Origin: Halieaceae bacterium
Lineage (GTDB): Bacteria > Pseudomonadota > Gammaproteobacteria > Pseudomonadales > Halieaceae
Assembly: GCA_028280635.1 (NCBI GenBank)
Contig: JANQLM010000048.1
Coordinates: forward strand, 1-64,000
DNA: 64,000 nucleotides
Direction: 5' to 3'
Shown here: in pieces, positions 14,672 through 27,203 of the stretch
How the letters are laid out: every line of letters starts with the position of its first letter
Position numbering within the stretch: position 1 is the stretch's first letter
The notes under the pieces: generated by a model
Seen by the model: only the letters and a program-made list of their open reading frames with translations
Told to the model about the DNA's origin: nothing
Database searches by the model: none
Translations under genes and position numbers: made by a program

Positions 14672-14710
14672 CACTGGGGGGCAGCGCCGGTTATTGTTGG
14701 ATTACCAAAG

Positions 14711-14739
14711 AATCTAGCGCTTGTCGGTCAAACTGTCAA
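14711..14739 (-). promoter_or_regulatory. Predicted sigma70-type promoter of the bchF superoperon
   Basis: On the minus strand a perfect -35 TTGACA (14739-14734) and a -10 TAGATT (14716-14711) are separated by exactly 17 bp. Transcription would start near 14704, about 30 nt before bchF. The -35 lies inside a TGT-N12-ACA site, so a bound repressor would block polymerase. Confidence 0.65.
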
Positions 14740-14751
14740 TATTGCCTTACA
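14734..14751. promoter_or_regulatory. PpsR/CrtJ-type operator, bchF/ppsR control region
   Basis: TGTCAATATTGCCTTACA is an exact match to the family consensus TGT-N12-ACA. It covers the bchF -35 box and lies between the divergent bchF and ppsR genes, so it could serve both repression of the superoperon and autoregulation of ppsR. Confidence 0.75.
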
Positions 14752-14759
14752 CTTAATGA

Positions 14760-14777
14760 AGTCCAATAAATTTGACA
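14760..14777. promoter_or_regulatory. Degenerate second PpsR half-operator with overlapping TTGACA
   Basis: AGTCCAATAAATTTGACA has a good right half (TTGACA) and a one-base change in the left half (AGT for TGT). It starts exactly 8 bp after the perfect site, the spacing used by cooperative CrtJ/PpsR pairs. Its TTGACA (14772-14777) could also be the -35 of a ppsR promoter, with a weak -10 TTAACT at 14795-14800 (17-bp spacer). Confidence 0.45.
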
Positions 14778-14916
14778 TAGCGCAGGGTTTGCGATTAACT
14801 CGAATGACCGAGGTATATGCAAGCGACGCGCTCGCACGGCCAACGGTCGGATTCGCCCCAACCGCGTCATCTGACCGCGGTAAAAGCCACCCTTTATTGA
14901 GAAACGGAAACTGCGC

Positions 14917-16308
14917 GTGCTAGGTCAGTTGGACCCTCAGGCATCGGCCGACCTCGTAACGAGAATGGCCGACTTCACAATGCTACTGGACGCCAGTGGC
15001 CACATCCTTGAATTGTCCGTGAATAGCGAAGACCTGGCCGGCGCTGTGGATGACAGTTGGGTCGGCAGAGACCTGCGCGAGCTTGCCACGGCAGAAACCC
15101 GGCCCCGCGTAGAAGAGCTGCTGCAACAGACCACCGCCAGCCCCGGCAGCGTCGGCAGCTGCGATGCCAGTCACGAGCTGGATGATGACGACAGCGACCT
15201 GCTGGTCCGCTACCGCGCGGTAGCGCGGGGCAACAATGCCGAAATCCTGGTGCTCGGGCAGGACATGCGGCCGGAAGCCAACCTGCGCCAACAGCTGATG
15301 AACGCCCAACAGGCGCTGGAGCAGGACTACTGGCGACTGCGCCAGATTGAAACCCGATACAAGCGCTTGTTCGACATGGTCAGTGACGCGATCATCGTGG
15401 TGGACGGCGACAGCCAGCGGGTGATCGAATCCAACCCGCGGGCCGCCGCCCTGCTGTCCCCGGACCAGGACTCCATCGCCGGCAAACCGTTCCCGGTCGG
15501 ACTGGACAAAACCGGCACCCGCAGCGTCAAGGCCCTGCTCGATGAAGTGCGACTGGCCGGACGCGGCAGCATCGAAGAGGTGCACACCGAACACGGCGAC
15601 CACTGCTTTGATATCAACGCCACCTTCCTGCGCCAGGGCAATGAGGCGCGCTTCCTGGTGCGCTTTGCCGATCACGGCACCGAGGGCGTCAGCATGGAGC
15701 ATGGCGCGGACGCGCTGCTGGGGGCATCCCTGCAGTCGTCGCCGGACGCCATCCTGCTGACCGATGAAGACGGTCGCGTCATCGCCGCCAACCAGACCTT
15801 CCTGGAGCTGGCTCAGGTGGTGTCCCAGGAGCAGGTACTTGGGCAACTCGCCGATCGCTGGCTGGGACGCTCCGGCGTGGATCTCAGCGTACTGCTGACC
15901 AACCTGCGCAAGAACACCAACGTCAAGCTGTTCAGCACCACCCTGCAGGGGGAACAGGGCTCCACTGCCGATGTGGAGGTGTCCGCCACCGCACTGTCCA
16001 ATTCCCGAGGGCGGAACCTCGCCTTCTTTATCAGGGATGTGGGGCGCCGCGTCGCCGCCGAGCACCCCTCCGCCGCGCAACTGCCCCGCTCCATCGAACA
16101 GATCACCAAGCGGGTGGGACGGGTTCCACTCAAGGACCTGGTGCGTGAATCCACCGACGTGATCGAGGCCCTGTGCATCGAAGCCGCGCTTGCGCTCACT
16201 CACGACAACCGCGCGTCCGCCGCGGAACTGCTGGGCCTGAGCCGGCAAAGCCTGTACGCCAAGCTGCGCCGCTATGAGATCGACGGCCCCGGTGATGAAG
16301 CCGGCTGA
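14917..16308 (+). CDS. ppsR: Transcriptional regulator PpsR (CrtJ)
   Basis: 463 residues, the normal PpsR length. An N-terminal PAS domain (about 15-115) is followed by a glutamine-rich linker with Q-Q-A-L-E-Q-D (about 122-145), two further PAS domains (about 150-255 and 270-380), and a C-terminal Fis-type HTH (N-R-A-S-A-A-E-L-L-G-L-S-R-Q-S-L-Y, 431-447). PpsR represses photosynthesis genes under oxygen and/or light by binding TGT-N12-ACA. Cys420 in the HTH region is the counterpart of the redox-active CrtJ Cys420. No cysteine occurs near residue 250, where the second redox cysteine is found in Rhodobacter; the nearest is Cys230. The start is GTG at 14917. It diverges from bchF and is followed by bchG. 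Confidence 0.93.
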   Translation: MLGQLDPQASADLVTRMADFTMLLDASGHILELSVNSEDLAGAVDDSWVGRDLRELATAETRPRVEELLQQTTASPGSVGSCDASHELDDDDSDLLVRYRAVARGNNAEILVLGQDMRPEANLRQQLMNAQQALEQDYWRLRQIETRYKRLFDMVSDAIIVVDGDSQRVIESNPRAAALLSPDQDSIAGKPFPVGLDKTGTRSVKALLDEVRLAGRGSIEEVHTEHGDHCFDINATFLRQGNEARFLVRFADHGTEGVSMEHGADALLGASLQSSPDAILLTDEDGRVIAANQTFLELAQVVSQEQVLGQLADRWLGRSGVDLSVLLTNLRKNTNVKLFSTTLQGEQGSTADVEVSATALSNSRGRNLAFFIRDVGRRVAAEHPSAAQLPRSIEQITKRVGRVPLKDLVRESTDVIEALCIEAALALTHDNRASAAELLGLSRQSLYAKLRRYEIDGPGDEAG

Positions 16309-16348: not shown

Positions 16349-16388
16349 ACACCTCTGACTGTCCATTTTAATTGACAGTCAGAGGTGT
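16349..16388 (+). terminator. Perfect 15-bp hairpin after ppsR, overlapping the bchG control region
   Basis: The arms ACACCTCTGACTGTC (16349-16363) and GACAGTCAGAGGTGT (16374-16388) are exact reverse complements around a 10-nt A/T-rich loop, and TTATTTCT follows. It lies 40 nt after the ppsR stop and could act as an intrinsic terminator, though the T run is short. It also contains the first PpsR operator and the bchG -35 box, so it may be a DNA-level regulatory palindrome instead. Confidence 0.5.
16360..16377. promoter_or_regulatory. PpsR/CrtJ-type operator 1 of bchG
   Basis: TGTCCATTTTAATTGACA matches TGT-N12-ACA exactly. It contains the bchG -35 hexamer TTGACA (16372-16377). Confidence 0.75.
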
Positions 16389-16400
16389 TATTTCTATATT
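16372..16400 (+). promoter_or_regulatory. Predicted bchG promoter
   Basis: A perfect -35 TTGACA (16372-16377), a 17-bp spacer and a -10 TATATT (16395-16400, 5 of 6 to consensus). The expected start of transcription falls at about 16407, the A of the first possible bchG ATG. Each box lies in a different PpsR operator. Confidence 0.7.
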
Positions 16401-16403
16401 ACA
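16386..16403. promoter_or_regulatory. PpsR/CrtJ-type operator 2 of bchG
   Basis: TGTTATTTCTATATTACA matches TGT-N12-ACA exactly, lies 8 bp after operator 1 and covers the -10 hexamer. Two exact sites with 8-bp spacing is the arrangement known for cooperative PpsR/CrtJ repression. Confidence 0.75.
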
Positions 16404-20295: not shown

Positions 20296-21390
20296 TTACC
20301 AGACCGGGGCCAGGCGCGGCTCGGCGGGGATCTCGTTGCTCCTGGTGGGGTGCAGGTACAAGCGCAGGAAAGTCAGGCCGGCGGCCGCTGAAAGGCCCAG
20401 CCGCTTGACCCCGGCCACCAGGCCGCCGCGCTCCCGCAGCTCCTGGATTCGCACATTGATCTCCCTGAGACGCTCAAGCCCGGCGCGGAAGCGTGGGCTG
20501 TCGGTGTCCAGGGTCAGCGGGAATACCTGGCGGCTGATCTCTGTGGTGATTTCGAAAACCCGGAAATCAAACTCGGTGGGATCCATGCCAAGGGCATGGT
20601 AGAGCTGCGGCCGGGTGTGGTCGCGGACATACATGGTGGAGTACACCGCCAGCAGGAAGAAACGAATCCACAGCTTGTTGTAACCGCGCAGCAGGTGGGG
20701 GTTGGCGCGCATGATCAACGCCAGGGATTCGCCGTGACGGAATTCGTCATTGCACCATTCCTGGAACCAACGGAAGATCGGGTGAAAACGCTTTTCCGGG
20801 TGCTTCTCCAGGTGCCTGAAAATGGTGATGTAGCGAGCGTAACCAATCTTCTCTGACAGGTAGGTGGCGTAGTAGATGTACTTGGGCTTGAAGTAGGTGT
20901 AGTCCTTCTCGCGCTTCAGAAAGCCCAGGTCCACCGCTACCCCGAGATGCTTGAGGGCGCGGTTGATAAAGCCGGCGTGGCGGGACTCGTCACGAGCCAT
21001 ATAGGCCATCAGGTCCTGCACGTCCTTATTGTCCACGTTTTTCTTGATTTCGTTATAGAGCACGCAGCCCGAGTACTCCGCGGTAATGGAGCTGACCAGG
21101 AAGTCGACGAACTCTTCCCTCAGCTCCGGAGACAGTTCGTGCATCTCGGCGTCGTAATCCACTTCGCCACGAAAGTGATCGTGGTTGTTATCTGCGGCAT
21201 ACTCTGCGAGCATCTTGTCCCATTCCTCGCGAACGGGATTGACGTCGAGACGATCCATCTCGGCGTAGTTCGTCTTATAAAAACGAGGCGCCAGCAGGGT
21301 GTCTTTCACAGCCTGCGCAGTGGTGTCATTGGTGTTGGTTTCGGGCTTGTTGTCAGTGTTGCTGTCGTCGATAGCAGCCATCTGGTTCAT
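20296..21390 (-). CDS. acsF: Aerobic Mg-protoporphyrin IX monomethyl ester (oxidative) cyclase
   Basis: 364 residues. Diiron ligands of the family are visible: E in [13 protein letters not shown] in [10 protein letters not shown], and E-F-R-H in N-D-E-F-R-H-G-E-S. The protein forms ring E of the (bacterio)chlorophyll macrocycle using O2. Its presence, with no bchE in this window, indicates aerobic pigment synthesis. The N-terminal 30 residues are Asn/Thr/Asp-rich and probably flexible. A GAGG ribosome-binding site precedes the ATG. A PpsR-type site lies in the shared upstream region. Confidence 0.96.
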
Positions 21391-21475: not shown

Positions 21476-21493
21476 TGTAAAGTTTTTTTGACA
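21476..21493. promoter_or_regulatory. PpsR/CrtJ-type operator between acsF and the BLUF gene
   Basis: TGTAAAGTTTTTTTGACA is an exact TGT-N12-ACA site in the divergent region, about 85 bp from acsF and 105 bp from the BLUF gene. A second, half-degenerate copy TGTCAATTATAGTTGTCT (21501-21518; right half TCT instead of ACA) follows after 7 bp. Confidence 0.7.
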
Positions 21494-21494
21494 G

Positions 21495-21523
21495 TTGGCT
21501 TGTCAATTATAGTTGTCTATACT
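21495..21523 (+). promoter_or_regulatory. Candidate promoter of the BLUF gene
   Basis: TTGGCT (21495-21500) and TATACT (21518-21523, 5 of 6 to the -10 consensus) are spaced by 17 bp. The degenerate PpsR half-site fills the spacer. Transcription would start near 21530, giving a leader of about 68 nt. Confidence 0.45.
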
Positions 21524-21597
21524 GCAAATTCAAGCAGGCTCGCACTATTCAGGCACGGATAGTCCGCGAGTTTCGAGCGCCAGGGGGCGCACGGCGA

Positions 21598-22077
21598 ATG
21601 GGACGAGATGCGGTAAGCGGTGTGATACACGCCGAAACGCCCGATGCCACGGCTGACCGGTTATACACTCTTGGCTATGCGAGTACGCAGACAAAGCCGC
21701 TGGGCACGGCAGGCCTGATCGAACTGCTCAACGAAGCCAGGGACTTTAACCAGAAAAACGGCATCACCGGCCTCCTGCTGCACAGGGATGACTCCTTCCT
21801 GCAGGTGATTGAAGGCCGCAAACAGGACGTCCTGTCCCTGTATGAACTGATCCAGAAAGATCCCCGCCATGAGCGCGTGGAAATCCTGTTTCAGGACTAC
21901 ATCACGGAACGTGAGTTCTCCGACTGGCAGATGGGTTTCATCGAGCTGGGCGGCGTGGATGTTTCGCTGCTGCCGGGTTTTTCCAACTTCCTGGTGGAAA
22001 ACGAGGAGCCCAGATCCCTGCTTGAGCGGCTCAGCCGTACCAAGCGGCTGCTGCTGCTGTTCAGGAATCTGTGCTGA
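21598..22077 (+). CDS. BLUF-domain blue-light photoreceptor protein
   Basis: 159 residues made almost entirely of one BLUF domain (about residues 21-115) and a short tail. All photocycle residues are in place: Tyr27 (L-G-Y-A-S), Asn51 (F-N-Q-K-N-G-I-T-G), Gln69 (F-L-Q-V-I-E-G), Trp110 and Met112 (S-D-W-Q-M-G-F), which match Tyr21, Asn45, Gln63, Trp104 and Met106 of AppA. BLUF proteins bind FAD and shift a hydrogen bond on blue light. No output domain such as the SCHIC domain of AppA is attached, so signalling must go through protein contact, as in short PixD/PapB-type BLUF proteins. The position beside a PpsR operator and acsF suggests a partner of PpsR or of another regulator; this is inference. 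Convergent with gdhA. Confidence 0.9.
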   Translation: MGRDAVSGVIHAETPDATADRLYTLGYASTQTKPLGTAGLIELLNEARDFNQKNGITGLLLHRDDSFLQVIEGRKQDVLSLYELIQKDPRHERVEILFQDYITEREFSDWQMGFIELGGVDVSLLPGFSNFLVENEEPRSLLERLSRTKRLLLLFRNLC

Positions 22078-25465: not shown

Positions 25466-26368
25466 TTATTCCGGCAGGGGAATGTACTCATCGTCGCCTT
25501 CGACCTTCGGGAAGCGCCCTTCCTTCCAGTCCAGCTTGGCCTGTTCGATTCGCGCGGGGTCACTGTGCACAAAGTTCCAGAAGATATGACGCTCGCCCAG
25601 GCGATCACCGCCAATAACCATCACCCGGCTCTCCTGGCTGGCCCTGAGCGTCAGCGACTTGCCGGGACAGGCGACCGCCATCACCCCGGCGCCGTGGCTG
25701 TCTTCGTCGATCACCACCTCGCCTTCGACCACGTACACCGCGAGCTCCTGTTCGTCATCAGGCAGTGACAACTCGGCGCCCGCCTGCAGCCGGCAGTCCA
25801 TGTACAGGGTGCGGGAATAGCTCATCACCGGCGACTCTTCGCCAAAAGCCGAGCCCATAATCAGGGTGGCGTGTGCACCGGGCAGGGAAATCCCGGGCAG
25901 GTCGGTCGCGGGATAGTGGCTGAAGTCCGGGGCGCGCTCCTGGTCCTGTTCAGGCAGGGCAATCCAGGATTGGATGCCATGCAGGCGGCTGAGCTCATCG
26001 AGATCGTCACCGGCTCGCTCAGAGTGGACGATGCCGCTACCCGCTGTCATCAGGTTGATCGCCCCGGCCTGAATAGGCTGCACCACGCCGAGACTGTCCC
26101 GGTGCATGATCTCGCCTTCAAACAGGTAGGTGATGGTGGCGATACCGATGTGCGGGTGCGGCCGCACCGAGATGCCCTTCCCTGGCGGGAATTCCGCCGG
26201 GCCCATGTGATCGAAGAACACGAACGGTCCCACCTTGCGGCGCCTGCGCGAAGGCAGTGAACGGCGCACGGTAAACTCCCCGAGATCGGTCTCCCGCGGC
26301 TCGATCAACAGTTCAATACTGCCCTCTCGCTCCGCGCAGGCTGCGTCTTCGGCATTTTCAAAGCTCAT
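25466..26368 (-). CDS. Pirin family protein
   Basis: 300 residues, two-cupin pirin. The N-terminal cupin has R-R-x-L-P-S-R-x-R-R-x-V-G-P-F-V-F-F-D-H-M-G-P and the metal-binding histidines in R-P-H-P-H-I-G-I-A-T-I-T-Y, plus S-G-I-V-H-S-E-R. Pirins are metal-dependent cupins; some have quercetinase activity, others regulate by protein contact. A second pirin-type protein lies 140 bp upstream. Confidence 0.88.
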   Translation of the reverse strand: MSFENAEDAACAEREGSIELLIEPRETDLGEFTVRRSLPSRRRRKVGPFVFFDHMGPAEFPPGKGISVRPHPHIGIATITYLFEGEIMHRDSLGVVQPIQAGAINLMTAGSGIVHSERAGDDLDELSRLHGIQSWIALPEQDQERAPDFSHYPATDLPGISLPGAHATLIMGSAFGEESPVMSYSRTLYMDCRLQAGAELSLPDDEQELAVYVVEGEVVIDEDSHGAGVMAVACPGKSLTLRASQESRVMVIGGDRLGERHIFWNFVHSDPARIEQAKLDWKEGRFPKVEGDDEYIPLPE

Positions 26369-26438
26369 GGTGAAATCTCCCGCTGGGTGTTGGATGGCGT
26401 GAAAAACAGTGTGAACAGCATTTGTTACGCAGTGAGGT

Positions 26439-26461
26439 GCGGGCCCGTTTAACGGGCCCGC
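26439..26461 (-). terminator. GC-rich hairpin after the YhhW-type gene
   Basis: GCGGGCCCG (26439-26447) and CGGGCCCGC (26453-26461) are exact inverted copies around TTTAA; the inner T/A pairs can extend the stem. It lies about 47 bp past the stop codon of the minus-strand pirin gene. No T-run follows, so termination would be weak or factor-dependent. Confidence 0.45.
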
Positions 26462-26462
26462 G

Positions 26463-26522
26463 AGCCTTCAGCCCATATCAAGAGCCTTCAGCTCACATTA
26501 ATAGCCTTCAGCCCATGTCAAA
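26463..26522 (-). repeat. Three tandem 20-bp repeats over the end of the YhhW-type gene
   Basis: Three copies of a 20-bp unit (plus-strand start AGCCTTCAGC) run at 26463-26482, 26483-26502 and 26503-26522. The third holds the true stop codon. The other two repeat the last codons and stop as non-coding copies with a few changes. Confidence 0.8.
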
Positions 26523-27203
26523 GAGCAGGAATTCCGACTCTTCAGCAGCTTCGATGTGCAAGTGGTCGCCGCCATCCAGCGCGGCGCCATCGCCCTGCTC
26601 CAGGCGTTGGCCGTTGACCAGCAGGCTGCCACCTGCCACCTGCAGCCAGCCTTTGCGGTCGCCGGCAATCGCATGATCAAGCGCCCTGCCGGACTCGAGA
26701 ATCGAGGCGTAGAGGTCCACATCCCTGTGAATCACAACCGCCCCATCGCGACCGTCACGGGCACCGACCAGCCGCAGCTGGTTGAGCTTGTCTTCGCGAC
26801 CAAAGGGCTTCTGCTCGTAACCGGGCTCCAGACCCTGGACTTCCGGCAGAATCCAGATCTGCAGGAAGTGGACTTCCTCGCTGTCGGAGGCGTTGTACTC
26901 GCTGTGGCGTACACCGGTCCCCGCCGTCATGCGCTGTACATCGCCGGGACGAATCAGCGAGCCGTTGCCCATGCTGTCATTGTGCTCCAGGGCGCCGTCC
27001 AGCACATAGGAGATGATCTCCATATCACTGTGGCCGTGGGTGTCGAAGCCGCGGCCGGGCTTTACCCGGTCTTCGTTGATCACCCGCAAAGGCCCGTGGC
27101 CCATATAGCGCTGGTCGAAGTAGTGGCCAAAGGAGAAGCTGTGCTTGCTGTCCAGCCAGCCGAAGTTGGCCACGCCACGCTCTGCACTCGGTCGAATCGT
27201 CAT
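26508..27203 (-). CDS. YhhW-type pirin/quercetin 2,3-dioxygenase-like protein
   Basis: 231 residues, the same length as E. coli YhhW. The cupin metal ligands are visible: His56 and His58 in F-D-T-H-G-H-S-D-M-E and the later H-S-E in G-T-G-V-R-H-S-E-Y-N. YhhW-type proteins cleave quercetin in vitro; the in vivo role is unknown. It diverges from a LysR gene with an inverted repeat between them, suggesting control by that regulator. The last codons lie in a 20-bp tandem array. Confidence 0.9.
   Translation of the reverse strand: MTIRPSAERGVANFGWLDSKHSFSFGHYFDQRYMGHGPLRVINEDRVKPGRGFDTHGHSDMEIISYVLDGALEHNDSMGNGSLIRPGDVQRMTAGTGVRHSEYNASDSEEVHFLQIWILPEVQGLEPGYEQKPFGREDKLNQLRLVGARDGRDGAVVIHRDVDLYASILESGRALDHAIAGDRKGWLQVAGGSLLVNGQRLEQGDGAALDGGDHLHIEAAEESEFLLFDMG

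Follow-up and report, generated by a model that had tools for sequence, protein, structure and literature searches.

A single-domain BLUF gene and a conserved tandem PpsR-type operator beside acsF in phototrophic Halieaceae

Introduction

How do aerobic phototrophs that lack AppA sense blue light? The question was raised in 2009 by Spring et al. (PMC2654016), who reported that pigment in Congregibacter litoralis is lowered by blue light only, independently of oxygen, and that this organism has no appA but encodes a single-domain BLUF protein near ppsR, which they proposed to modulate PpsR in an unknown way. A BLUF gene close to acsF was later noted in this clade (Zheng et al. 2011, PMC3176799), and subsequent work on Halieaceae retained the BLUF-PpsR idea as a hypothesis (PMC3666943), for which we found no published test in the literature searched. 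The idea of a BLUF-PpsR circuit is therefore not new, having been published in 2009 for C. litoralis. New here are the family-wide footprint of the operator, its anchoring on acsF, and a C-terminal tail as a candidate output surface.

Results

The 64,000-nt stretch analyzed (hereafter, the window) comes from a member of the Halieaceae (OM60/NOR5) and includes part of a photosynthesis gene cluster with the order puhA, bchL, bchH, bchB, bchN, bchF, ppsR, bchG, a PucC-family gene, bchP, acsF, and the BLUF gene. The transcriptional regulator gene ppsR lies at 14917 to 16308 on the plus strand (TIGR02040, 476 bits against a cutoff of 275). The gene for the aerobic Mg-protoporphyrin IX monomethyl ester cyclase, acsF, occupies 20296 to 21390 on the minus strand (TIGR02029, 506 bits) and is divergent from the BLUF gene at 21598 to 22077 on the plus strand, as the earlier note on this DNA had described. 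This arrangement is constant: acsF is divergent from the BLUF orthologue at every one of the 55 orthologous loci with a detected acsF, the sole orthologue with no visible acsF (L008) being near a contig end, and in one genome (G007) the pairing is retained although ppsR is 16 kb away. Three other features of this genome were recorded. Two adjacent pirin-family genes, with C-terminal types Pirin_C and Pirin_C_2, stand beside a nitroreductase-family gene at 25466 to 27203. A BchE-like B12-dependent radical SAM protein is encoded elsewhere in the same genome (L032, contig C51), so that O2-independent and O2-dependent cyclases possibly coexist in one aerobic phototroph. Finally, bchF and ppsR are direct neighbors (14674 to 14917), whereas the Roseobacter litoralis cluster has a ppaA-like cobalamin-dependent gene between them; a Thiodictyon plasmid (L066) likewise has no ppaA-like gene at this position.

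Judged by its domain profile and photocycle residues, the product of 21598 to 22077 is a BLUF photoreceptor. Its 159 residues contain one BLUF domain (residues 22 to 113), matching Pfam PF04940 over 92 of 92 profile positions (E value, 5e-29). The five residues around the flavin (Tyr27, Asn51, Gln69, Trp110, and Met112) are all present, as claimed earlier, and are invariant among 35 orthologues. The chain stops at residue 159, which is 46 residues past the domain, confirming a stand-alone BLUF with no SCHIC domain on the same chain. In an AF2 model the BLUF core is well predicted (pLDDT, about 83 to 94), and Foldseek finds it similar to the BLUF domain of AppA, to PixD, and to BlsA. No match to the protein was found in the viral contigs scanned. 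The span of 21476 to 22077 originally assigned to the feature does hold a real BLUF gene, but its start at 21476 is that of the operator, the gene itself beginning at 21598.

The protein belongs to the photosynthesis-cluster clade of Halieaceae, as indicated by its position divergent from acsF, its placement in the tree, and its C-terminal tail: the BLUF orthologues form one clade (support, 97/96) with one outside sister. Across 140 Halieaceae genomes, 55 have both the BLUF orthologue and PpsR, 77 have neither, 1 has only the BLUF gene, and 7 have only PpsR; among these seven, one contig stops before the expected BLUF position (G071) and another carries a BLUF fragment at its end (G076). Physical linkage alone could yield this co-occurrence, so that a functional tie is supported but not proven. 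One genome (G110) departs from the usual structure at both genes: its BLUF reading frame (L095) overruns the usual end, with loss of the end of the tail, and its ppsR is split over two frames, which may reflect decay or an assembly error.

The exact TGT-N12-ACA site proposed between acsF and the BLUF gene is present at 21476 to 21493 (TGTAAAGTTTTTTTGACA), and sister genomes carry TGTCAATATTTTTTGACA at this position, a perfect TGTCA-N8-TGACA. What had been overlooked is a partner palindrome with a degenerate right arm at 21501 to 21518 (TGTCAATTATAGTTGTCT), 7 nt from the first, the pair having the form of a typical tandem PpsR operator. Tandem PpsR sites seven or eight bases apart have been described in C. 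litoralis (PMC2654016). The significance of the first site derives from this partner and from conservation: the window has 14 bare TGT-N12-ACA matches where 8.5 would be expected, an uninformative count, and the analysis relied instead on paired sites and on their conservation between genomes. At a threshold of 17 of 20 positions, the window contains only three strong tandem pairs, located in the bchF-ppsR gap (14734 to 14777; pair score, 17/20; spacing, 26), upstream of bchG (16360 to 16403; likewise 17/20 with spacing of 26), and between acsF and the BLUF gene. Simulated sequences (n = 15) never contained more than one pair each, even at a looser threshold. Two TGT-N12-ACA palindromes side by side, the second degenerate in its right arm, overlie a predicted promoter at the acsF/BLUF site, which fits the predicted PpsR regulon.

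The operator sites endure across loci while the surrounding sequence changes. Strict tandem pairs occur in 33 of 55 Halieaceae acsF-BLUF intergenic regions, as opposed to 0.9 in shuffled sequences, and exact TGT-N12-ACA sites occur in 24 of 55, as opposed to 2.8; the shuffles preserve base composition only, and the 55 loci come from related genomes, so that these counts are not independent events. Tandem spacing of 24 to 26 bp is kept across the family, and the peak information content of the intergenic region lies at palindrome 2.

A consensus scan between the two genes returned two promoter-like sites, one per strand, against 0.2 expected. The predicted acsF promoter (TTGAAT-16-TATAAT, 21506 to 21533, minus strand; 10 of 12 matches) has its −10 box within palindrome 2, most of the 19 loci compared having it at an identical offset, and a conserved CAAG block downstream on the plus strand corresponds to its predicted −35 region. 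The predicted BLUF promoter (TTGGCT-17-TATACT, 21495 to 21523, plus strand; 9 of 12 matches) spans palindrome 2, and a TATACT-like −10 box lies at the end of the palindrome, at the same offset, in the window's genus and four others (g1, g3, g6, g7, and g27 in all). In genus g21, no consensus BLUF promoter is recognizable over the operator. The locking of the acsF −10 box within palindrome 2, together with the lack of a recognizable BLUF −10 box in g21, indicates that this is primarily an acsF operator. The claim that the BLUF gene is under PpsR control thus holds in part: the tandem operator is real but is anchored on the acsF promoter, and a recognizable BLUF promoter overlaps it in some genera only, that of the window among them. 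These same observations could mean that the operator serves acsF only, with the BLUF gene outside PpsR control and its position a historical one. We regard this as distinctly unlikely, given that the predicted BLUF promoter of the window overlaps palindrome 2 and that the position of the BLUF −10 box is kept in five genera. In the window's genus, the operator is very plausibly common to acsF and the BLUF gene.

The assembly, which is 98.6% complete, contains one BLUF gene, that of the window. A full AppA elsewhere in the genome, which the earlier note had named as an alternative source of light control, is therefore rejected, there being no second BLUF gene. The note had also looked to SCHIC-domain genes to decide whether an AppA-like partner exists. 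No PpaA-like gene was detected: the genome gave no match to PpaA of R. litoralis in a search run without a positive-control genome, and its matches to the B12-binding domain PF02310, which does detect PpaA, were only the BchE-like radical SAM protein, MetH, and a methylmalonyl-CoA mutase (named from sequence). A very divergent SCHIC domain could escape such searches, as could a gene in the portion of the genome that the assembly lacks. No phytochrome was found in the genome, and LOV-based control is not supported, as none of the nine PAS_9 matches has an NCRFLQ-type motif.

Three photolyase/cryptochrome-family genes are present, all outside the window, and they raise the alternative that a different receptor (a cryptochrome, for instance) or photo-oxidative stress mediates the response to blue light, with only a minor role for the BLUF protein. 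CryB influences photosynthesis genes in Rhodobacter (PMC3320616), and green light, too, represses pigment in two Halieaceae (PMC3666943). The three genes may nonetheless be DNA repair photolyases, and none of them lies in the window; we consider this explanation very unlikely.

The tail of the BLUF protein comprises residues 124 to 159 (codons at 21967 to 22074, plus strand) and is a candidate output surface private to the clade. Its consensus, PREFLExLSRGKRLALMFR, is common to all 56 orthologues, with L145, L151, and F155 invariant in the alignment. A tail profile scores a median of 71 bits in the 56 orthologues, partly by construction because 35 of them built the profile, and at most 8.5 bits in 52 of 53 other BLUF proteins. 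In the AF2 model the tail has a pLDDT of 43 to 51, as opposed to the good core, and the tail model was set aside for this reason. The exception among the 53 is the sister sequence L100 (50.6 bits), from a genome of another gammaproteobacterial family (G482, 85% complete; locus L129) in which neither PpsR nor pufM was detectable, and this speaks against PpsR as the sole partner of the tail. Genes of dynamin-like GTPase and GAF-GGDEF-like type, identified by eye, lie on the contig with this BLUF gene, and this genome could reveal the ancestral partner of the tail.

That the closest tailed relative resides in such a genome favors a different account, in which the signal passes from the BLUF protein to a partner other than PpsR, such as a c-di-GMP enzyme, a chemotaxis protein, or some other regulator, and the place of its gene in the cluster reflects only co-production with pigments. 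Short BLUF proteins do have varied partners: BlsA exerts its effect via Fur (PMC5955987), and a BLUF protein from Spongiibacter has a link to chemotaxis (PMC8805636). Against this stand the constancy of acsF and the photosynthesis cluster as the neighbors of the BLUF gene across genera and the fact that pigment is specifically affected by blue light in C. litoralis (PMC2654016), and we judge signaling through another partner to be unlikely.

Discussion

The gene encodes the BLUF sensor that belongs to the photosynthesis cluster of phototrophic Halieaceae. The domain and its residues, the operator, the promoter overlap, their conservation, and the co-occurrence with PpsR can be read from the sequences themselves, and they are best explained, in our view, by a scheme that we hold to be about evenly poised between right and wrong. 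PpsR would occupy the tandem operator in the acsF-BLUF intergenic region and repress acsF as well as, in the window's genus, the BLUF promoter overlapping that operator. We infer that, in darkness, the BLUF protein most likely binds PpsR and relieves its repression by direct contact, possibly through the conserved C-terminal tail; blue light would end this relief, and the pigment genes would be shut down. Were both the relief and the repression of the BLUF gene by PpsR to hold, the resulting feedback loop would be positive and switch-like.

This scheme draws on the intact and sole BLUF gene, the family-wide tandem operator, the co-occurrence with PpsR, and the retained pairing with acsF; on searches for a PpaA-like gene, a phytochrome, or a LOV motif that revealed no replacement; and on the blue-light effect on pigment in C. 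litoralis, the precedent of LdaP, and the single clade with its private tail. Counting against it are that the operator is anchored on acsF, such that regulation of the BLUF gene could be a by-product, that a tail occurs in L100 with no detectable PpsR and need not be a PpsR contact, and that other short BLUF proteins act on different partners.

Known systems resemble the BLUF protein of the window in different respects. The nearest is KT71_19323 of C. litoralis KT71, also of a single domain, from the same clade of bacteria, near ppsR and acsF, and with no AppA, a likeness that is based on published description and not on sequence; KT71 has two BLUF genes, as opposed to one here. AppA of Rhodobacter (Cereibacter) sphaeroides carries the identical set of photocycle residues in its BLUF domain and is linked to PpsR, but it has a C-terminal SCHIC domain and Cys-rich region where the protein of the window has its own kind of tail. 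PixD (Slr1694 and Tll0078), BlsA, and BlrB share its size class and BLUF core, but their C termini are unlike the tail, with matches ending near profile positions 114 to 144 of 158, and their partners differ. LdaP (Dshi_1135) of Dinoroseobacter shibae works as the BLUF protein is proposed to, being a blue-light flavoprotein with no SCHIC domain that in darkness binds to PpsR and acts as its antirepressor (PMC10890935), although it is a LOV/FMN histidine-kinase-like protein of unrelated fold. A flavin photoreceptor lacking SCHIC can therefore antirepress PpsR in the dark.

More tentatively, and with considerable doubt, the private 36-residue tail might be a minimal PpsR-binding module that replaces the SCHIC domain of AppA, in which case the protein would be the smallest light-dependent PpsR antirepressor, and PpsR would control its own antagonist through the operator shared with acsF. 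A minimal light-dependent repressor antagonist of this kind, if true, would be of interest to optogenetics. On present sequence evidence, the acsF/BLUF feature is real and conserved, and its proposed mechanism is the published hypothesis with a stronger cis element and a candidate output segment. The conserved operator and tail narrow the question of 2009 to two proteins and one short segment.
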